Made by a program: the position numbers and the translations under genes
The notes under the pieces: model-generated
Told to the model about the DNA's origin: nothing
Databases searched by the model: none
The model's input: the letters and a program-made list of their open reading frames with translations, nothing else
Shown here: piece after piece, positions 11,399 to 54,717 of the stretch
How positions within the stretch are numbered: position 1 is the stretch's first letter
How the letters are laid out: each line of letters starts with the position of its first letter
DNA from: Phycisphaerales bacterium
GTDB taxonomy: Bacteria > Planctomycetota > Phycisphaerae > Phycisphaerales > UBA1924
Direction: 5' to 3'
DNA length: 64,000 nt
Assembly (NCBI GenBank): GCA_023382935.1
Contig: JAHDXL010000011.1
Location: forward strand, 1-64,000

Positions 11399-12805
11399 TC
11401 ACTGCTTCGTGTAGTTCGCCATCATCGCCTGCAAGTCCAAAACGTTCACCACCCCATCAAAGTTCGCATCCGCCCGGACGCTGCCGGCCTTGTGCCAGTC
11501 GAGGAATCGCATCAGTTCGGTCGAATCGACGCGCCCGTTCCCGTCCAGGTCGTAACTACGAAGGAACAGGCGCTTCTCGCGTGCCGCCAGCAGATCCTCC
11601 AGGCGCATGTCCCACTCCCGGTCAGACAACCGCCCGTCGCCGTTCAGATCATGCTCCCGCATCGCGTGCTCGAACCCCATGCGCATCACCCGGGCGGTCT
11701 GCCTGGCTGACCATTCGGCGATCTGCTTCTGGTATTCCTGCGCCGCGGCCGCGAACGCCTCCCCCTCAATCCCGTCGATCTGCCCGTCCCCGTTCTCATC
11801 AAAATCCATCTGTTCAGGCGCTTTGGGAACAACCTGCATCATCTGCTCACCCAGCAGGTTCTTGTCCATGTTCTCCACGCGCATCGCATCCAGCAGACTC
11901 TGTGCCAGCGTCTGCACTGCCAAAATCTCCCGCCGCGCTTCCATCGCCTTCAGCGTTGAAGGCCCAAATCTCTCCGTCGGCGTCTGCTTGACCGCCTCCT
12001 GCTCGTTCTGATCGATCAGCGATGCATCGCTGACCACCTCGATCGGCCCATCCTCGTGAATCTCCACGCTCGCCAGCGTCGCCTCCATCCCGGCCAAGGT
12101 CTCGGCCTCCGTCAGCGCCCCATCGAGGTCAACGTCCCAACTCTCGATCTTCGCTCGCTCCGCCACCCCACCGATCGCGTTCTGCATGCTGGCCAGATCG
12201 TGCAGCACTGACACCTCTCCGGCCGGCCCTTGCCCATCGCGGTTCGCATCCAGCCTCGACCTGATGTATGGATGATCCAGCATTGCGAGCATGTTCAGAT
12301 TCTCTGCAGCAAAAGTCTCTACTTCCGCGTCGGTCACCACGCCATCGGCATTGGCATCGAGGGCGCGCACCATCTCCACCTCGAGCATCGCCGCGTTCAT
12401 CGCCCACAGGATCGAGCCCTCCTGCCCGTCAAGGGCCGTCTGGGTCAGCGCAAGCATCCTCGCCTCCAGATCGTTGTAGGGTCGCTCGGGAGGCCTGTTC
12501 GCACGCACCCACTCCCACGCCGCCGCCAGGCGCTCTTCGTCCGTCCGCCCGACCGTCGCCGGCGCGAGCGCCAACTCGGCCTCCAACCTCAGCAACGCCT
12601 CGTCGTCGATGCGCATCATTGCCGGCGCGCCGCTCGGGCCGCCACCGCCTTCCGATTCGGCCAGAAGATCCACATCGTGCGGCTCCACACCCTCGCGGCT
12701 CGAAAGGCGCGAGCCACCCGCACTCGGCTGCGACGTCAGAAACCATCCCAACGCCCCGGCCAGAACCACGCCCATGATGAGGAGGAAGCCGATGACCCAG
12801 CGCAT
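11399..12805 (-). CDS. Membrane-anchored EF-hand repeat protein
   Basis: 468 residues. One N-terminal transmembrane helix (VIGFLLIMGVVLAGALGWFL) anchors a long, acidic, helical extracytoplasmic region with seven EF-hand-like calcium loops: LDANADGVVTDAE, LDANRDGQG, VDLDGALTEAE, FDENGDGQIDGIE, HDLNGDGRLSDRE, YDLDGNGRVDSTE and ADANFDGVVNVLD. The last one, followed by LQAMMANYTKQ, resembles half a dockerin module but lacks the terminal Cys-Pro found in four other proteins here. The ATG was chosen because AGAGGA lies 7 bases upstream. Calcium binding is likely; the role is unknown. Confidence 0.75.
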   Translation of the reverse strand: MRWVIGFLLIMGVVLAGALGWFLTSQPSAGGSRLSSREGVEPHDVDLLAESEGGGGPSGAPAMMRIDDEALLRLEAELALAPATVGRTDEERLAAAWEWVRANRPPERPYNDLEARMLALTQTALDGQEGSILWAMNAAMLEVEMVRALDANADGVVTDAEVETFAAENLNMLAMLDHPYIRSRLDANRDGQGPAGEVSVLHDLASMQNAIGGVAERAKIESWDVDLDGALTEAETLAGMEATLASVEIHEDGPIEVVSDASLIDQNEQEAVKQTPTERFGPSTLKAMEARREILAVQTLAQSLLDAMRVENMDKNLLGEQMMQVVPKAPEQMDFDENGDGQIDGIEGEAFAAAAQEYQKQIAEWSARQTARVMRMGFEHAMREHDLNGDGRLSDREWDMRLEDLLAAREKRLFLRSYDLDGNGRVDSTELMRFLDWHKAGSVRADANFDGVVNVLDLQAMMANYTKQ

Positions 12806-12922
12806 CCCCAATCCTCTCGCCTACCGCCCGTTCCTGCCCCTCGGCCCTGCCGGGCAACACCCACCCACCCCCGCTTCTGTTCAGGTTACTCGCAAAACCC
12901 CCCGAAGCACGACTCTTCCTTT

Positions 12923-18687: not shown

Positions 18688-21600
18688 TCACGGGCACGCG
18701 GCGGCGAAGAAATTGAGAAAGGTCTGCACGTCAAAGAAGTTGAACTGTCCATCGGAGTTGAGATCGGCCGCCAACTGGCGCGCCGCGAACGCATTGAGGA
18801 AGAATTGAACATCAAAGAAGTCCACGGCCCCGTCCGCGTTGAGATCGCCCGGACATGCAAGTTGACACGATCGGCTCAGCACGCGCACATAGTCAACCCC
18901 AGCCTCGGTCACCGAGTCGTTGGGCTCGTCGGCGATGGTGAAGCGCAGGCGAACGCTGGAAACCGGCCCAACGAGCCAAGCCGCGTCCAGCGTGTGATCG
19001 CGCCAGGCGAAGCCGGAGCGAAGTGTCGCCGCGGGCAGCCAGGTGACGCCGTCGTCGGCCGAAATCTCGACCGACAGGAAATCCTCGCCAGGCTGCCCGG
19101 CGTCATCGCAGTTGAGCCAGTAGGCAAAGGTGATGAGCGGATCGGGAACGCCCGACAGATCAATGCGCGCGGAAGTCAGGATGGCCGAGCCGCCGTCCAC
19201 ATCCGTGTCGCCGGCCGCCCGGTTGGTGAGCCATGCTTTACCGGAGCCATCGGCATCGTTCGGCGGGTCGCCTCGCAGTCCGCCGCCGAGTGGGGTGCCA
19301 AAGTTCCAGCCCCCGCCGGTCAGGCCTGGCGTCGCGCTGGACGTCCACCCGCTGCTCCCCGTGAAAACCTGCGTGAACAGCGTGCGTTCCATTCCCGTCT
19401 CAATGCCCAAGCCCGAGGCAGGCCAGGCCTGCGGCCACCAGGTGACCTGTCCGTCTGCTTGCTCGACGCGCAACGCGACTTCGCTGGTCTGCCCGCACCC
19501 AGCCGCCGGCAACCTGAAGGAGTACGTCGTGTCGTCAACATCGAATGGTGTGAGTTCGCCCGACAGGCCGCCGTCGGTGCGCCAGACGAGGCTGACAACC
19601 TGCACCGGTGAGCCCACCGCATCGACGCGAAATGCGAGGGGCATGGACACATAGGGTGCGCGGCGCTGGGGAACGCCGGCGGGCGCACTGATCTGCACCT
19701 CGGTCGGCCTCGGCACCACGCCCGATGCGACCAGCGCATAGGTCGCGTCGAGTTGGGGAGTGGCGGGGTAACCGTCAGCGGTGAACTCGTCCGCCACCAC
19801 CTCGATGGTCCACCGGCCCGGCACGGGCTTGGGCACGATGACCTGCTCCACGGTGTTCTGCCGGTCGAACCTCCCGCCCGCCTGTGAATACGGCGAGTCG
19901 AGCAGCCCGTAGTTGCCGAGAAAAACCAGCCCGTCCGGTGAGGTGACCCGGAGTGAGAGATCGTTGACCAGTTGAGCAAGCGAGCCGGGCATGCCCGGAG
20001 GGTCGGGATACACAAGCGTGACTTGCAGCACGTCCTGCATGGGCTCAACGTCAGCCACGTACACGCGGCTTTGGCCTGGAGCGAGCAGGTCGGTCTGGTC
20101 GACGATCAGCATGCGTTCGCGCTGGTCGTACAGACGCGACACGCTGGCATGGCCCCAGCCTTGGCGGAACCGGCCCAGATCGTCGGCCATGGACGCAAAG
20201 TTCCACTGTCGCGCGCTGTTGATGAGCATCGCCTTGGTCGTGGCCGCGTGCGGACGCGCATCGAACACATCTCCGCCGGAGGTGGCATTGCCGAACAGAC
20301 CGCCCGCATACATCTGTATGGCCAACGCCCCGCAGCCGGCGGTGATCGGCGTGGCGGCGCTGGTGCCCCAGAAGTTCTCATGCGCGGTGTTGCTTGACGA
20401 CGCGATGGTCCACACGTCCTCGTAAATGTGCGCCAGGTCGGGCTTGATGCGCCCGTCGATGGCTGGCCCGCAACTGGCCTGCTGCATCCACCCATCATCG
20501 ATGAGCGTCGCCGTGTTCCCATGCACCACGCCACCGACGGAGACGACGTTTTTCGCCCACGCCTCGGGGCGGGAGTCCTGGTTCCCCGCGTTGCTCTGCG
20601 ACTGAAAAATGACGACGTCGGTGTCAAAAGCGATCTGGTCAAGTTCCGCCGAGACGCTGGTGTAAAGGCGCGAGCGCGCCGCCCCCCAACTGTTGCTCTG
20701 GAATACGGCCCGGTAGGGCGCTTCGAGCAGCGATCGGGTGTGGGCCGCCCGATCGGTCATGTTGTTGTACGAAGCGAAGATGCCCTGGGCATCGGGGATC
20801 ATGCCGCGCGAGGGGGCGCTGGTGGCACCTGAGCCGAAGAGAATGCCGAATACAGGCGTGCCGTGCGTGGGGTCAGACCCGTTGGCGGTGTGCATGAGCG
20901 GCGGACGATGCACCAGATCGGCGTGCGTGGTCAGCAAGGCCGCGTCCATCACCTCGCCGGAGACACCCTGGCCAGTCATTCCGGCCAACGATTCGAGGGC
21001 GTCGGCGCCACTCATCGCACGCGCGATGTGCATGTCGGGCTCGGGCGCCGACCACCCGTCGATCCACAGGACTTCGGGACTGTGGGCCAAGTCGCGCAGG
21101 CGCGATGCCGGGGCATGAACGACGACGCGCCGACTGGTGGTCGCCGGTTCAGACACCGTGGCTCCGCAGGCCGCCGCGTGAGCCTTGAGGCGCGCCAGGG
21201 TGTCTGGCGTTGCATCCCAGGCGAACACGTTGACGGGCACGAGTGCCTGCGCGTCCGCGTCCGCAGAAGCAAGAAGTTGGGAATCGACTCTGAACTCGGC
21301 CGGAAAGGCCGCCCCCGCGTCGATGCACCTGGGACGCGAGGCTCCCGCGCCGCCCCGCCTTGCCACGAACACTCGGTCGCCCAGATGGGGCCCAAGTTCG
21401 ATGCCGGCCTGTGCTAACTCCTGCAAGAGGTCGTCTGTGAGGGCCCGATCGACGTGAACGAGAAACAAAGCGCCAGAGGTGTCAAACTGGGAAAGATCGA
21501 GCGTGATCGAACGGCCATTGAACGCCACGGAAGGGGGCTGGGCCGGTGCCGAGAGCGACATCGATACCAACGCCAGGGATACGAGGTGCCCATAGCCCAC
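18688..21600 (-). CDS. Exported subtilisin-like serine protease with dockerin-like tail
   Basis: About 970 residues. Signal-like leader (LVSLALVSMSLSAPAQ), then an S8 peptidase domain: Asp219 in SGEVMDAALL, His246 in PTHGTPVFGILFG, oxyanion Asn in QSNAGNQ (about 337-340), Ser414 in FWGTSAATPITAG. Downstream are beta-sandwich regions with a jelly-roll-like segment, and the last 57 residues form a double DxNxDG-FFDV dockerin-like module ending in AAACP. GTG was chosen because GGGGA lies 7 bases upstream and a -10-like TAGTAT overlaps the earlier ATG at 21633. Secreted or surface protease; substrate unknown. Confidence 0.8.
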   Translation of the reverse strand: MGYGHLVSLALVSMSLSAPAQPPSVAFNGRSITLDLSQFDTSGALFLVHVDRALTDDLLQELAQAGIELGPHLGDRVFVARRGGAGASRPRCIDAGAAFPAEFRVDSQLLASADADAQALVPVNVFAWDATPDTLARLKAHAAACGATVSEPATTSRRVVVHAPASRLRDLAHSPEVLWIDGWSAPEPDMHIARAMSGADALESLAGMTGQGVSGEVMDAALLTTHADLVHRPPLMHTANGSDPTHGTPVFGILFGSGATSAPSRGMIPDAQGIFASYNNMTDRAAHTRSLLEAPYRAVFQSNSWGAARSRLYTSVSAELDQIAFDTDVVIFQSQSNAGNQDSRPEAWAKNVVSVGGVVHGNTATLIDDGWMQQASCGPAIDGRIKPDLAHIYEDVWTIASSSNTAHENFWGTSAATPITAGCGALAIQMYAGGLFGNATSGGDVFDARPHAATTKAMLINSARQWNFASMADDLGRFRQGWGHASVSRLYDQRERMLIVDQTDLLAPGQSRVYVADVEPMQDVLQVTLVYPDPPGMPGSLAQLVNDLSLRVTSPDGLVFLGNYGLLDSPYSQAGGRFDRQNTVEQVIVPKPVPGRWTIEVVADEFTADGYPATPQLDATYALVASGVVPRPTEVQISAPAGVPQRRAPYVSMPLAFRVDAVGSPVQVVSLVWRTDGGLSGELTPFDVDDTTYSFRLPAAGCGQTSEVALRVEQADGQVTWWPQAWPASGLGIETGMERTLFTQVFTGSSGWTSSATPGLTGGGWNFGTPLGGGLRGDPPNDADGSGKAWLTNRAAGDTDVDGGSAILTSARIDLSGVPDPLITFAYWLNCDDAGQPGEDFLSVEISADDGVTWLPAATLRSGFAWRDHTLDAAWLVGPVSSVRLRFTIADEPNDSVTEAGVDYVRVLSRSCQLACPGDLNADGAVDFFDVQFFLNAFAARQLAADLNSDGQFNFFDVQTFLNFFAAACP

Positions 21601-22031: not shown

Positions 22032-24134
22032 ATGAAGCACCGTGGCATGTACATGGGAGTGGTCGTGGCCCTTGCCGGGCTGGCCGGGTCAGCCTATGCG
22101 CAGGACAGCGTGAGCAACCAGGGCGCGTCATTGCCTGGCGATGCGTTGTCGCCCTGGGACACCGGGCTGCAGAAGACTTCCTACGTGGTGGACATGACCC
22201 CCTTCCAGACCTCGTGGGGCACCCAGTTCGGCATCGCCCCGCTGATTAAGACCTCCAAGGCGTCAACGTCGTTCACCAGTTCGTTGGGCAGTTCTCAGTT
22301 CCTGTCCAATGACATGCTCACCGGCGTGCCGTATGCATCCAGCCAGTACAAGTTGTGGCAGAACGCGGCCGGACAGGGCATCAACCCGCAGACCAACGCC
22401 GCGACGGGGACGATCACGGCACCCGCGGGCAACAGTTACCAGTTTGCCGCCGCGATGACCGAGTTTGCGACCAGCACCGGCGGATTCAATTACAACGGGC
22501 TCATCGGGGCGGTGGTGAACTACAACCCGTCCAACAGCGGGCGTCTGTATGTGACGCGCGTCGTCGGGGCCGTGAACACGACCAACGCCACCTCGGGCGA
22601 CTCGTCGCAGTTGGGCTTCGGCTCGATCGATGCGAACGGCAACCTGTACTACCGGGCCGATGCGTTCGGCATCGTGGGAAGCCCCGGTCTGCCCAGCGTC
22701 TCCGGCAACAACCTCTACCGCACCGACCTGCTTTCACGCGGCAGCGTGCTCAACCAGATCATCGGCAACCCCGCGGCTCTCAACGCGACGACGGCGCTGC
22801 TGACCGCCTCGACTGTTTCGCACAACACGCCGAATCACATCCCGCAAAGCGTCGCGGGCAGCGCCATTCTGGCAGGGACCAACTTCAACAATGAGTACGT
22901 CCGTGGTGCGACGGCACCATTGACGGCCGATAGCAGCCACCTGGCCGCAGGCGTGACCAACCACCGCGGCGGGCTGGGCTCGACCACGGCCCAGGTACTC
23001 GGCTCGGGCGTGGCCACCTTCGGACTCCTTGCTCAGACTGGCGGGCCCACCACGTCTATCAACCTCTTCAGCGTCAACGCCGCCGGAAACGTGATCGACA
23101 AGGGGAATCTGACCGCACCGGCCAGTGTCACCGACAACTCGGACGGCTTCACAATCAACTACACCGCCGCCGCCGAGTTCCGTCAGTACGTCAGCCAGAC
23201 CGCCGCACGCGGGGGTAATGGCCAAGTTGCCCTGGGTCGAGATCGCAACGGCATGGGGCTCATCGCGGCCACCATCCATGAAAACGGGCTCAACGACGAC
23301 TTCTCCAACCAGATCCTCGTCGCCCGGCGCAATCCCAACACCGGCGCCACCCAGTGGACCATCGCCGCCTATATCGACCAAGCGTTTGTCTCCGGCCGCA
23401 GCGGCAAGGAAGTGCTCGATGGCTCGGGCGCGGTCATCGGCGTGCTCACCCCCTTATTCAATGTCACCGGCGGGTCGCCGCTGGGGCCCTCTATTTCCAG
23501 CCCGGTGATCGACGCCGCGGGCAACATCTGGTTCCTCTCCGCCGTCGAACTCTTCAACCGCCTTCCCGGTGGGGGCAGCGACTTCGACAACGCGCTGTTC
23601 CGCGCCGTGTACGACGAGGCGACCTTCAGTTACCGCCTCGAACTGGTGCTCGAACTCGGCTCGGTCTTCGCCGGGCAGAACTCCGGGCGAAACTATCAGG
23701 TCCAATTCCTGGCGATCGCCGACAGCAACTCGATTGACTCGGCGACGGTCTTCAGCGGCAATGGCACCAGCCACACCTGGAACAACGTCCCGCTGTCGGA
23801 ACTGACCAACCGCGATCCTCGCACCAGCGGCGGGTTCGTGCTCCAGGCGAGCATCGTGTACGACGTGGATGCCGACGGCACGTACAACACCGCCGGCGTG
23901 GATGAGCAGTACAACGCGCTGCTCTTCATCGGGTCGATGATCAACGCCGGACCGCAGCCCTGCAACCCGGCCGACTTCGCCGAACCCTATGGCGTGCTTA
24001 ACTTCTTCGACGTCCAGGCGTTCCTCCAGGCCTTCTCGGCCCAGAATCCCGCCGCCGACCTCAACAACGACGGCTTGTTCAACTTCTTCGATGTCCAGAC
24101 GTTCCTCCAGGCCTTCTCGGCCGGCTGCCCGTAA
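22032..24134 (+). CDS. Large exported protein with dockerin-like tail, function unknown
   Basis: 700 residues with a clean signal peptide (KHRGMYMGVVVALAGLAGSA, cut after AYA) and no recognised catalytic domain. The body is rich in Asn, Thr, Ser and Gly with beta-strand character, like a surface or periplasmic beta protein. The last 58 residues form the dockerin-like module with NFFDVQAFLQAFSA and NFFDVQTFLQAFSAGCP, bracketed by Cys residues. GAGGAG lies 11 bases before the ATG (8 before an in-frame GTG just ahead of it). A strong terminator hairpin follows. Probably secreted or surface displayed. Confidence 0.75.
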   Translation: MKHRGMYMGVVVALAGLAGSAYAQDSVSNQGASLPGDALSPWDTGLQKTSYVVDMTPFQTSWGTQFGIAPLIKTSKASTSFTSSLGSSQFLSNDMLTGVPYASSQYKLWQNAAGQGINPQTNAATGTITAPAGNSYQFAAAMTEFATSTGGFNYNGLIGAVVNYNPSNSGRLYVTRVVGAVNTTNATSGDSSQLGFGSIDANGNLYYRADAFGIVGSPGLPSVSGNNLYRTDLLSRGSVLNQIIGNPAALNATTALLTASTVSHNTPNHIPQSVAGSAILAGTNFNNEYVRGATAPLTADSSHLAAGVTNHRGGLGSTTAQVLGSGVATFGLLAQTGGPTTSINLFSVNAAGNVIDKGNLTAPASVTDNSDGFTINYTAAAEFRQYVSQTAARGGNGQVALGRDRNGMGLIAATIHENGLNDDFSNQILVARRNPNTGATQWTIAAYIDQAFVSGRSGKEVLDGSGAVIGVLTPLFNVTGGSPLGPSISSPVIDAAGNIWFLSAVELFNRLPGGGSDFDNALFRAVYDEATFSYRLELVLELGSVFAGQNSGRNYQVQFLAIADSNSIDSATVFSGNGTSHTWNNVPLSELTNRDPRTSGGFVLQASIVYDVDADGTYNTAGVDEQYNALLFIGSMINAGPQPCNPADFAEPYGVLNFFDVQAFLQAFSAQNPAADLNNDGLFNFFDVQTFLQAFSAGCP

Positions 24135-24236: not shown

Positions 24237-25601
24237 ATGCCCAAGTCCGCCGCCCCACTGCTGCTGTTCTGCGGGGTCGCCCTTTCCGCTCACGCCCAGT
24301 GGGATCCTGCCAACGGCTCGTGGGGCAAACAGGAAGCCACCGACATCCGCGTGATGACGTGGAACATCCAGGACGGCATTGTCTCGACCTCCACGACCAA
24401 GAACCCCGGATTCAATGACTGGAACGCGCTGGTCCACATCGTCGCGGCTCTGCGCCCCGACGTCCTGATCCTTCAGGAGGCCGGCGACCGCAGCGGCAGC
24501 GGCACGGGCACCGGAGTTGACAGCGTCGGCGAACTGACCACCACCATCGGCCTGTTCCTGCGCGGAGGAAACGACCCCTTCCTCGGCAATGTGCCGGTGA
24601 CGGCCTACGTCCAACTGCACGCGCCCGACTACGACCTGCCCTACGTCTTCGTGTCCAACATTACCGACGGCTTCAACCGCAACGTCATCCTGTCACGCTT
24701 CCCGATGGCCGACATCAACGGCGACGGAGTAGCGACCTTCTCCAACTTCGTGCTGCTCCCCGACGCCTATCAGAGCGGCGGCAACGGCGGCATCCGCGAC
24801 TTCATGCACGCGGAAATCAACCTGCCTGATGGCATCTATCAGGGCGACTTGGTCATCGGCAACTGCCACTTGCGATCGGGCAGCGAGGCCACCGACCTGG
24901 CCGACCGGCTTACCGCCGCGAAAAACATCGCCTACTTCGTCGACTACTTCTTCAACGGCGCAGGCATGGGACTCGCGGATCCGAACAACAAGATCGTGTT
25001 TCCTGCCACGACGCCCTCTTTGCTCAACCAGTACACGCCGGTGGTCTGGGGCGGCGACCTGAACGAGAACGAGGCGACCAACGGCCGCAAGGGCCCCGCC
25101 GAGTGGTTCGCCCGCGCCAACCTCACCGGCGGAACCGACGGCACCGACCGCGACCGGTCCGACTCCACCTGGGATTCGGCCGCGCAACCGATCTCCGGCG
25201 AGACGGGCACCTTCGGCAGCAGCACCAACAAGTTGGACTACTTGGTTTTCCAGGACAGCGTGGCGCCGGTTCGCCGGCAGTTCATCTTCCGCTCCAGCGG
25301 CTCGGGCATGACGGCCGCCCAACTCCCGCTGCCGGTGCGCAACTTCCCGACGCAGCCCCTGCTGTGCAGCAGCATGGCCTCGGACCACCGTCCCGTGATC
25401 ATCGACTTCATCCTGCCGCTGGTCCCGGTCCAGTGTGCGGCCGACTGGAACGCAGACGGATCGCTCGACTTCTTCGACGTCGCCGCTTTCCTCGCCGACT
25501 TCTCCGCACAGCAGCCCAGAGCCGACCTGACCGGCGAAGGCGCGTTTGACTTCTTCGATGTGGCCGCGTTCCTGGCCCTGTTCAGCAGCGGCTGCCCGTA
25601 A
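24237..25601 (+). CDS. Exported endonuclease/exonuclease/phosphatase-family protein with dockerin-like tail
   Basis: 454 residues: signal peptide (PLLLFCGVALSAHAQ), then an EEP (DNase I-like) fold. Matching motifs are VMTWNIQDG with the Asn, LILQEAGDR with the metal-binding Glu, GNCHLRSG, WGGDLNENE (Asp and Asn) and the final SDHRPVIIDF with Asp-His. The last 56 residues are the double FFDV dockerin-like module ending in SSGCP, with a Cys at its start. Substrate may be nucleic acid, phospholipid or a phosphate ester; the fold does not say which. GGAG lies 8 bases before the ATG. Its stop is 6 bases from the convergent btpA stop. Confidence 0.82.
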   Translation: MPKSAAPLLLFCGVALSAHAQWDPANGSWGKQEATDIRVMTWNIQDGIVSTSTTKNPGFNDWNALVHIVAALRPDVLILQEAGDRSGSGTGTGVDSVGELTTTIGLFLRGGNDPFLGNVPVTAYVQLHAPDYDLPYVFVSNITDGFNRNVILSRFPMADINGDGVATFSNFVLLPDAYQSGGNGGIRDFMHAEINLPDGIYQGDLVIGNCHLRSGSEATDLADRLTAAKNIAYFVDYFFNGAGMGLADPNNKIVFPATTPSLLNQYTPVVWGGDLNENEATNGRKGPAEWFARANLTGGTDGTDRDRSDSTWDSAAQPISGETGTFGSSTNKLDYLVFQDSVAPVRRQFIFRSSGSGMTAAQLPLPVRNFPTQPLLCSSMASDHRPVIIDFILPLVPVQCAADWNADGSLDFFDVAAFLADFSAQQPRADLTGEGAFDFFDVAAFLALFSSGCP

Positions 25602-53400: not shown

Positions 53401-54717
53401 ATGATGAGGACGATTGGATCGTTGTTGCTGACCTGCACCGCCGGGCAGGCGATTGGGCAGGCCTACTCGCCCGACTGGTCGCCCGTGGGCGTCGGCATGC
53501 CGACGGAGGTGTACGCGCTGGCGGAGTTTGACGACGGCACCGGGCCGGCGCTGTACGCGGGCGGCGCATTCTCCAACTTCAGCAACTTCATGCCGGCCAA
53601 CTACGTCGGCAAGTGGGACGGCAGCAACTGGTCGAGTTTGGGCAGCGGGCTGAACGGGCGCGTCTTGGCGCTGACGGTGTATGACGACGGCTCGGGCGAT
53701 GCGCTGTACGCCGGCGGGGCATTTACTGTCGCGGGCGGCGCGACGGCCAATCGCGTCGCCAGGTGGAACGGGAGCGCGTGGAGCCCGTTGGGCTCGGGCA
53801 TCGGCGGCGGCACCACGCCTCGGGTGTTTGCGCTGACCGTGTTCAATGATGGCTCGGGCGATGCGTTGTATGCCGGCGGGCGGTTCAACAACGCGGGCGG
53901 CTCGGCGGCCACGACGATCGCCAAGTGGAATGGAACCTCGTGGTCGGCGCTGGGAAGCGGAACCAACGTCGAGATCTGGGCGCTGTGCGCGTTCAACGGT
54001 TCGTTGTACGCGGGCGGCATGTTCACCATGGCCGGGGGAACGCCGGCGAACTACCTGGCCAGGTGGAACGGGTCCACATGGTCACCCGTGGGCGTGGGGA
54101 CCAACGGGGTGGTGCGCGCGCTGGCGGTGCACAACGATGGAACAGGGAACGCGCTCTATCTCGGCGGGCACTTCACGACGGCAGGCGGCAGTCCGGCAGC
54201 AAGCATCGCCCGGTGGAACGGAACCGCGTTCTCGTCGCTCGGTTCGGGCGTGGCGCCGGGCACGTTTGCACCGGGGGTGCGAGCGCTGCTCGCGTTTGAT
54301 GACGGCTCCCCGGCGGGAACGGCGCTTTATGCCGGCGGTGACTTCTCCACGGCCGGAGGTGTGAGCGTAAACAACATCGCGCGGTGGAACGGCACCGCAT
54401 GGAGCGCGCTGGATACGGGCACCAACGACATCATCGAAGGTCTGTGCTCGTCGGGGCTTTCCGGGCGGCCGGCGCTGTATGCGGGCGGGTGGTTCACCAC
54501 GGCCGGGCCGGTGAGCGCCGATCGGGTGGCGAGATGGGCGTGCGACTGCCCGATTGACTTTGCCCCCCCCTACTGCTGGCTGGATTTCTTCGACGTGATG
54601 GCATTTCTGAATCTCGCGGCCACGGGCAGCCCGCTGGTCGACCTCAACGGCGACGGCATCTTCGACTTCTTCGACGTGCAGGCCTTCCTGATGATGTACG
54701 CGAGCGGGTGTCCCTGA
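53401..54717 (+). CDS. Exported beta-repeat protein with dockerin-like tail
   Basis: 438 residues. Signal peptide (MMRTIGSLLLTCTAGQAIGQ), then about seven repeats of a propeller-like unit of about 50 residues with the core L-Y-A-G-G-x-F-x-x-A-G-G and x-x-A-R-W-N-G-x-x-W-S-x-L-G-x-G. This resembles Kelch or delta-60-like beta-propeller blades. The final 58 residues are the dockerin-like module (WLDFFDVMAFLNLAATG, FDFFDVQAFLMMYASGCP) with Cys at both ends. Likely surface or secreted; ligand unknown. Confidence 0.8.
   Translation: MMRTIGSLLLTCTAGQAIGQAYSPDWSPVGVGMPTEVYALAEFDDGTGPALYAGGAFSNFSNFMPANYVGKWDGSNWSSLGSGLNGRVLALTVYDDGSGDALYAGGAFTVAGGATANRVARWNGSAWSPLGSGIGGGTTPRVFALTVFNDGSGDALYAGGRFNNAGGSAATTIAKWNGTSWSALGSGTNVEIWALCAFNGSLYAGGMFTMAGGTPANYLARWNGSTWSPVGVGTNGVVRALAVHNDGTGNALYLGGHFTTAGGSPAASIARWNGTAFSSLGSGVAPGTFAPGVRALLAFDDGSPAGTALYAGGDFSTAGGVSVNNIARWNGTAWSALDTGTNDIIEGLCSSGLSGRPALYAGGWFTTAGPVSADRVARWACDCPIDFAPPYCWLDFFDVMAFLNLAATGSPLVDLNGDGIFDFFDVQAFLMMYASGCP

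Follow-up and report, generated by a model that had tools for sequence, protein, structure and literature searches.

The window analysed here is a stretch of 64,000 nucleotides of a Phycisphaerales bacterium (assembly GCA_023382935.1, contig JAHDXL010000011.1, positions 1 to 64,000 of the forward strand), and our subject is the short module with which four of its proteins end. The four open reading frames are real and carry this shared tail as an original prediction, made from the letters of the DNA, had described it; all four tails exceed the cut-off of 29 bits of the NCBIfam model NF041540 (dockerin_GC). Judged by these matches the tail is an already named one, that of the "GC-type dockerin domain-anchored protein". 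The count of four holds for the window and not as a genome total, since the genome (3.72 Mb in 35 contigs) contains 116 matches to the model (E ≤ 0.01), and 104 of these exceed the cut-off (one of them only jointly with its neighbour). A literature search, whose scope took in few subscription journals and preprints, did not find a published account of the biology of GC-type dockerins. While the named family is known, its genome-wide abundance, the pairing of its cysteines, the letters that differ between genera and its descent together with the proteins that carry it are new here. The features of the window are the following, "body" being the part of a protein ahead of its tail.

18691..18855, minus strand: GC-type dockerin tail of the S8 protease-like protein 18688-21600, ending AACP (NF041540, 39.8 bits)
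18856..21600, minus strand: body with a subtilase (Peptidase_S8) domain (Pfam PF00082, 54 bits)
22032..23960, plus strand: body with no assigned function and a signal-peptide-like start (heuristic); Pfam scan at E ≤ 0.1 empty
23961..24131, plus strand: GC-type dockerin tail of protein 22032-24134, ending AGCP (NF041540, 46.0 bits)
24237, plus strand: signal-peptide-like start of the EEP protein (heuristic)
24237..25433, plus strand: body of the endonuclease/exonuclease/phosphatase (EEP) family (Pfam PF03372, 27.4 bits against a cut-off of 24.5)
25434..25598, plus strand: GC-type dockerin tail of protein 24237-25601, ending SGCP (NF041540, 48.7 bits)
53401..54546, plus strand: body with a DUF5122/Rax2-like beta propeller (Pfam PF17164, 39 bits; PF12768, 36.4 bits)
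54547..54714, plus strand: GC-type dockerin tail of protein 53401-54717, ending SGCP (NF041540, 32.1 bits)

Each of the four tails has an initial cysteine, two hands consisting of a loop and a helix, FFDVxxFL-like helices, and Cys-Pro as its final two residues. A DNA pattern for FFDVQxF, with at most one mismatch allowed, occurs five times in the window against 0.00 expected from 100 shuffles, and these copies fall in three of the four tails, the tail at 25434-25598 having FFDVA instead. The tail at 18691-18855, which is the genome match G000:C11:18694-18855 (G000 being the window's genome), carries a code of recognition letters that is also found on a same-genus homologue, L347. The start at 53401 resembles a signal peptide as well, as judged by eye.

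Fold, cysteines and position of the tail

On profile comparisons and a predicted model the fold appears dockerin-like, although, for a domain of this small size, the absolute scores are not high. Against Pfam Dockerin_1 (PF00404) the best window tail reaches 20.9 bits and stays under the membership cut-off of 22.9, and the remaining three had no match to that model at E ≤ 0.1. With a profile built from 64 tails, the dockerin 2y3n_B (E 0.003) was the sole PDB chain to come within E ≤ 0.01. The AlphaFold model of the tail at 25434-25598 has a mean pLDDT of 96.7 and helices at 13-24 and 40-51; its top Foldseek match is the dockerin 2vn5_D (E 0.62), with EF-hand proteins among the other rows at lower probability. 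When Foldseek's best 28 chains, a set outside which further folds may lie, were re-aligned with VIA-align, 17 reached Z ≥ 2, and all 14 entries listed are cellulosomal dockerins, the best alignment having Z 4.7 over 52 residues at 3.0 Å.

Loops could be parsed in 98 of 101 tails of the window's genome (hereafter own tails) and not in the other 3. The first loop is of the canonical DxNxDG type in 54, near-canonical in 17, of a DxAxPxG type in 17 and of other types in 10; for the second loop the corresponding numbers are 42, 26, 5 and 25. The earlier statement that the first loop is often degenerate holds for two of the four window tails, in which AEPYG and APPYC replace NxDG (the tail at 23961-24131 has the non-canonical DFAEPYG type, that at 54547-54714 has DFAPPYC). 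That the DxAxPxG loop recurs suggests that calcium may be dispensable in one hand. In the tail read from each of the genomes G224, G217 and G245, every hand has two extra cysteines at repeated places, possibly forming a further disulfide.

The cysteine ahead of hand 1 and the one near the C-terminus tend to be present or absent together. Among 110 full-length own matches (6 of the 116 were left out for coverage below 48 amino acids), 97 have both cysteines, 8 neither, 1 only the first and 4 only the last, which makes five discordant tails (Fisher p 1e-8, shared descent ignored); the 97 include two untypical matches, C1_439549 with 29 residues after the cysteine and C6_20843, which is under the cut-off. 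The 69 tails of relatives from the same family divide into 64 with both, 4 with neither, 1 with only the first and 0 with only the last. The pairing is loose in 23 tails from a different family of this order, of which 12 have both cysteines, 5 neither, 5 only the first and 1 only the last (Fisher p 0.05, descent again ignored). The relatives' tails come mostly from the top of the match listings, 80 of 100 prepared, and lean towards the model; their first cysteine was sought in a window slightly wider than that used for own tails, and wider still for row L047. Six of 80 named loci were flagged as lacking the first cysteine since the match began further upstream, and by eye all six have it. Joint presence or absence is what a disulfide clasp predicts, and such a link is plausible because the ends of a cellulosomal dockerin are also clasped, namely by Tyr-5 stacking on Pro-66 in the account available from PMC4728124. 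We infer that the two cysteines form a disulfide tying the ends of the tail together; the clasp put forward in the original prediction is indirectly supported by the pairing in the own genome and in its family, and less so by the other family of the order.

The tail is, with few exceptions, the very end of the protein. In 105 own tails the terminal cysteine is followed by one residue in 87, none in 10, two in 2, three in 2 and 9 to 51 in 4, so that 101 of 105 end within three residues of it; in a scan of named genomes (titled Phycisphaerales, Phycisphaerae, Planctomycetota or, in some cases, just "bacterium") all of the best 80 of 381 loci stop 0-3 residues past the cysteine. The supposition of an always C-terminal place fits these numbers, and a commonly internal module, which would have told against it, was not what we found. 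The supposedly fixed Cys-Pro ending fared worse, being present in 67 of 105 own tails (64 Gly-Cys-Pro, 3 Ala-Cys-Pro). Where proline is missing, D, N, S, V, H or other residues, or nothing at all, follow the cysteine, and in the relatives G032 and G090, which keep the cysteine, proline stands in 2 of 9 and 2 of 14 tails. The near-constant residue is the cysteine, and the terminal proline is optional. One own tail, G000:C6:174352, stops at glycine, lacks the near-terminal cysteine and has two cysteines ahead of hand 1.

Abundance, bodies and recognition letters

In a draw of 198 genomes across the class, NF041540 matched 60 at E ≤ 1e-4 and 43 over its cut-off, against 0 of 14 control genomes; richest are the window's family and family f4 of the same order, besides the isolated rich genomes G106 and G058. 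In a draw from the family, all 61 genomes have matches at E ≤ 0.001 and 60 have one over the cut-off; 45 of the 61 hold at least 50 matches and 31 at least about 81. The highest counts per genome are lower bounds, of at least 28 in the class-wide table and at least about 81 in the family table. The model under-counts some codes: G198, G237 and G219 have 3, 10 and 12 matches to it at E ≤ 0.001, whereas BLAST with a tail of G198 (E ≤ 0.01) gave far higher counts, of 82 in G198 itself (a few of them fragments), 96 in G237 and 66 in G219, and elsewhere 3 in the window's genome, 2 each in G242 and G213, and 0 in G207, G209 and G199.

Some observations on distribution may be recorded here. At L122 (G000:C6:93621-113060) 11 consecutive tail-bearing genes lie on one strand with short gaps. 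Three own single-hand matches (G000:C3:442885, C6:119109 and C5:100973) end in a near-terminal cysteine and are possible half-dockerins; functional half-dockerins are described for Ruminococcus flavefaciens in the portion of PMC8063739 at hand. Within the window, the 470-residue protein at 11399-12811 (minus strand) has a membrane-like segment at its N-terminus and a number of EF-hand-like repeats, lacks the cysteine pair and matches NF041540 weakly (24.6 bits, under the cut-off). The record RHKP01000009.1, labelled Cyanobacteria bacterium CYA N2_1, appears to belong to the window's genus, of which G228 is another member. Viral contigs gave one distant dockerin-like match, L345 (IMGVR_UViG_3300032373_001064), and on this single match we rejected viral carriage of the tails.

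The bodies proved to be as varied as the original prediction, which saw in the tail a tag for location on unrelated exported proteins, would have them. BLAST grouped the bodies of those full-length own matches that have a near-terminal cysteine, 101 in number, into 66 clusters, of which the largest has 18 members. When 93 of the bodies were scanned with Pfam (E ≤ 1e-4), 68 families were found, and the 25 listed include FG-GAP (5), subtilase (5), reprolysin (3), PA14 (3) and propellers; in the window itself Pfam recognises the subtilase, the EEP protein and the DUF5122/Rax2-like propeller, the fourth body having no match at E ≤ 0.1. A crude test of hydrophobicity gave a signal-peptide-like start for 93 of the 101 bodies; the protein at 53401 was one of the 8 that did not pass, since an upstream start had been chosen by the script. 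Homologues of the window's subtilase body occur, at E ≤ 1e-20, in 52 of 61 family genomes; these form a large paralogous family, for which we do not claim strict orthology.

According to the part of PMC8063739 available to us, positions 10 and 11 of each hand determine the specificity of dockerins, and as recognition letters we took positions 10, 11, 13, 14, 17 and 18 of a hand. The letters of the helices are alike within a genome: FFDVQ in the window's genome and in G189, IFDFLAFQN in G032 and G046, FADLN in G090, NGDF with long loops in G119, AADLA-like letters in G096 and G084, and FFDVS and FFDVL in named genomes, of whose 80 loci the analysis labelled A2 took 60. Counted by eye from the first aspartate of the loop, positions 10-11 read FF, IF, FA, NG and AA. 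The regular expression used for the letters also catches off-register hands in G119, for which the percentages are therefore low. Among tails without indels (70 own, 9 from G032), identity in the code columns is 0.74 between own tails and 0.31 between own tails and those of G032, whereas in the calcium and structural columns it is 0.83 and 0.76.

The tails on homologous subtilase (S8) bodies allow the letters to be compared on one kind of protein. Nearly all of 29 such tails have two hands and a near-terminal cysteine but differing letters, such as IFDFLAFQN (G003), FSDYL (G253), ANDFQCFL (G224), IDDIDCFV (G245), VNDISYVLFRL (G198) and DQDIEAFF (G207); the exceptions are L348 (out of frame), L359 and L372 (no end cysteine), L369 (contig end) and L375 (cysteine further in). 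For the window's tail and 26 of these 29 (L348, L359 and L369 being left out for the reasons given), 27 tails in all with hand cores chosen by eye, the identity of hands 1 and 2 within a tail is 77% when 11 core positions are compared, as against 27% between genomes, and a permutation test of this likeness on 26 subtilase tails gave 0 of 10000. In every one of the 27 tails the two hands agree at position 10 (14% between genomes), and at position 11 they do so in 74% (8%). Taken over positions 10, 11, 13 and 14 of hand 2, the 27 tails show 24 letter sets, some of them mutually close.

This closeness is also seen when single tails are searched against other genomes. The tail of G224 matches 149 times in its own genome, at least 150 times in G217, 86 in G003, 81 in G205, 66 in G245, 36 in G203, 24 in G223, 6 each in the window's genome and G200, once in G090, and not at all in G119 and G207. 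The own tail C6_207462 matches 114 times in the window's genome, at least 150 times in G003, 121 in G245, 101 in G200, 98 in G203, 84 in G205, 82 in G090, 47 in G224, 45 in G223, 36 in G217 and 3 in G207, with none in G119; the hundred best rows of its search come almost entirely from the window's genome. The match counts show kinship between codes, the scores and letters show their difference.

The likeness within a genome might arise if tails had been copied or converted recently. The median DNA identity of 70 indel-free own tails is 0.65, and of 2415 pairs only 2 exceed 85%, one being identical and one at 0.895. Between own tails, codons for the same amino acid agree at 0.65, as compared to 0.56 expected from the codon usage of the bodies; between hand 1 and hand 2 this agreement is 0.695 within a module and barely lower, 0.661, between modules. 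In a same-genus genome the tail of the orthologue ranks first of 101 in all six clear cases (body identity of at least 77%), while in a seventh pair, with 34% body identity, it ranks sixth and for an eighth there was no body match. The orthologue loci came from a search with own tails, which leans to similar tails and not to the orthologue, and the pair with L347 was set by hand. As far as these six cases go, tail and body have been inherited together within the genus, and we mostly reject recent copying or conversion on the median identity and the first ranks.

A probable common partner and its alternatives

Vertical descent within the genus, together with letters that differ between genera, points to selection by a common, changing partner, and one such partner is the simplest reading of the data. 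On this reading, apparently exported and mostly unrelated proteins would carry a docking domain of dockerin type at their extreme C-terminus. Its two similar hands would present the recognition letters twice, so that binding would probably be possible in two orientations, by analogy with many cellulosomal dockerins. The cysteine before hand 1 and the cysteine 0-3 residues from the C-terminus would form a disulfide in place of the Tyr-Pro clasp. The tails of one genome would bind a single shared receptor outside the inner membrane, which may hold about 100 proteases, propellers, nucleases and other proteins on the surface of the cell or in a complex outside it, and clients would be re-coded in parallel because the receptor changes between genera. 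The sequences themselves show the abundance, the C-terminal place, the paired cysteines, the letters alike within and unlike between genomes and, in the six clear cases, the vertical inheritance; binding, a single receptor, the surface location and the disulfide are inferred from them. We hold it on balance probable that these are disulfide-closed tails of dockerin type, with some 100 clients on one shared receptor that changes between genera.

Several points weigh against this reading. The absolute structure scores are weak (best Foldseek E 0.62, best Z 4.7), and in the other family of the order 6 of 23 tails are discordant in their cysteines. Within the window's own family, NF041540 finds fewer than 20 matches in each of 11 genomes out of 61; three of the 11 hold 66-96 matches to another code, an account that covers only these three. 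The codes grade into each other, as the own tail's matches in G003 (at least 150) and G245 (121), at weaker scores, and the G224 tail's 86 and 81 matches in G003 and G205 make plain. The diversity of the codes is also compatible with other common partners, for example a secretion machine. Finally, Pfam cohesin was found in only 4 of 41 family genomes, the window's included, where diverged cohesins would escape, and the small cohesin-like protein treated next has matches in 5 of 41 genomes with clear relatives in 3.

The original prediction had named a sortase or a cohesin as possible partners. A sortase was found in 0 of 61 family genomes by a search that was positive in 3 of 14 controls, and this partner can be dropped; exosortase is present in 61 of 61 and hence not informative. 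A cohesin does co-occur in the 4 of 41 genomes just mentioned and is missing to Pfam from the other 37, and we rejected it as the universal partner. The matches of G205 lie on a contig of 3.6 kb and look foreign; this contig (L147, G205:C283, 3593 bases) encodes a protein of three cohesins with TPTP linkers and is perhaps a foreign contig in the assembly. In the window's genome a three-gene set at G000:C8:56351-60768 (L148, L158 and L159) includes the small protein, whose cohesin-like character and PEP-CTERM-like end were both judged by eye. In the middle stands a Pfam-cohesin protein (26.1 bits, cut-off 24.1) with HYR and dockerin matches under their cut-offs, and the third is a cohesin-like protein in which a GC tail is followed by 51 further residues, a rare internal tail. 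The G228 counterpart of this third protein has a long extension with a GDSHAE motif past the tail. The small protein has no match in Pfam or NCBIfam, and its two sequence matches in the PDB (E 0.26 and 0.47) are unconvincing. Apart from its clear relatives, the matches in G216 and G212 are by eye other proteins, one with a PEP-CTERM-like end and one a membrane protein, and in G207 the small protein is 49% identical although the S8 tail code there differs greatly. We rejected it as the receptor: it is not a general one, unless the versions of other genomes are too diverged to see.

One alternative is that the partner is a classical cohesin scaffold, a "planctosome", on which the tails would be ordinary dockerins and the cohesins too diverged to detect. 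Such a complex has been proposed in Nemodlikiaceae (PMC6461901), profile models are described to miss divergent cohesins in the part of PMC11557425 available, and the three-gene set with its one Pfam cohesin gene would suit it; given the distribution of both kinds of cohesin just described and a small protein so well kept in G207 across a different code, we think it rather unlikely, if worth keeping in view. The C-terminal place, the 93 of 101 signal-peptide-like starts and the likeness of letters within a genome would also follow if the tail were a signal for sorting or secretion that a single machine of the outer membrane reads, the code following the machine. The type IX C-terminal domain is a signal read by such a machine. 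Two similar hands with letters at the dockerin specificity positions suit a binding module better, no sortase was found, and the tail has neither the transmembrane segment nor the basic residues with which exosortase substrates end; we regard a sorting signal as improbable, and the sortase-type signal of the original prediction is not supported, as no possible transmembrane segment comes after the cysteine. Were the tails to bind each other in a homotypic assembly, one code per genome would be expected and the missing receptor would not be needed, but the near-constant last position and the place of the code at dockerin specificity positions would be left unaccounted for, and we consider this very unlikely. 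Equally little credence is due to a recent lineage-specific spread of one tail with no common partner, which we disfavour: the identical pair, the pair at 0.895 and the codon agreement above expectation speak for it, while the median identity, the orthologous tails that rank first in six of six cases and the other letters on homologous bodies across genera speak against it.

To return to the shared receptor that changes between genera, a bolder version would be a private lock-and-key system of the whole family, with dozens to at least 150 proteins per genome, a disulfide-closed key, a fast-changing novel receptor in each genus to which about 100 keys are re-coded, and extra cysteines that replace calcium in G224, G217 and G245; taken as a whole this is a tentative proposal that we rather doubt. 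Should a single receptor indeed serve some 100 clients whose contact letters each genus has rewritten, the tails would be a natural record of lock-and-key co-evolution with about 100 replicate keys per genome and a stock of orthogonal docking pairs; they would give a direct route to the receptor, as a protein that changes in step with the code, and would likely answer how these planctomycetes keep exported proteins at the cell.

Comparison with known systems

The window tails share with NF041540 the C-terminal place and a glycine ahead of the cysteine, the latter in 94 of 105 own tails, and the model misses some codes: when 10 tail codes were scanned one by one, 7 scored over its cut-off and 1 under it, and 2 went undetected.

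Substrates of PEP-CTERM/exosortase and LPXTG/sortase systems have a motif followed by a transmembrane helix and basic residues. Like GC tails, these endings occur in many copies, at the C-terminus and on unrelated exported bodies; unlike them, GC tails have 0-3 residues after the cysteine (101 of 105 own tails), which leaves no room for a transmembrane segment and basic end.

Cellulosomal type I dockerins (PF00404; PDB 2vn5, 1ohz) and 2y3n_B likewise consist of duplicated loop-helix hands with two-fold symmetry, and in the accessible text of PMC8063739 positions 10 and 11, which are among the code positions here, are the ones for specificity. The GC tails are 54-55 amino acids long, stay under the Pfam cut-off and have a cysteine pair where a cellulosomal dockerin has the Tyr-Pro clasp. 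Their bodies differ as well, in that glycoside hydrolases are absent among the 25 families listed of 68.

A related proposal is the planctosome of Andrei et al. 2019, i.e., cohesin-dockerin complexes in Nemodlikiaceae, which are freshwater Phycisphaerae (PMC6461901). In the portion of that paper available, the model has peptidase bodies and a cohesin-HYR-dockerin adaptor like the middle protein of the three-gene set. Here, 37 of 41 family genomes have no Pfam cohesin, and the cysteine pair and a code that differs between genera, neither of which that portion mentions, set the GC tails apart.

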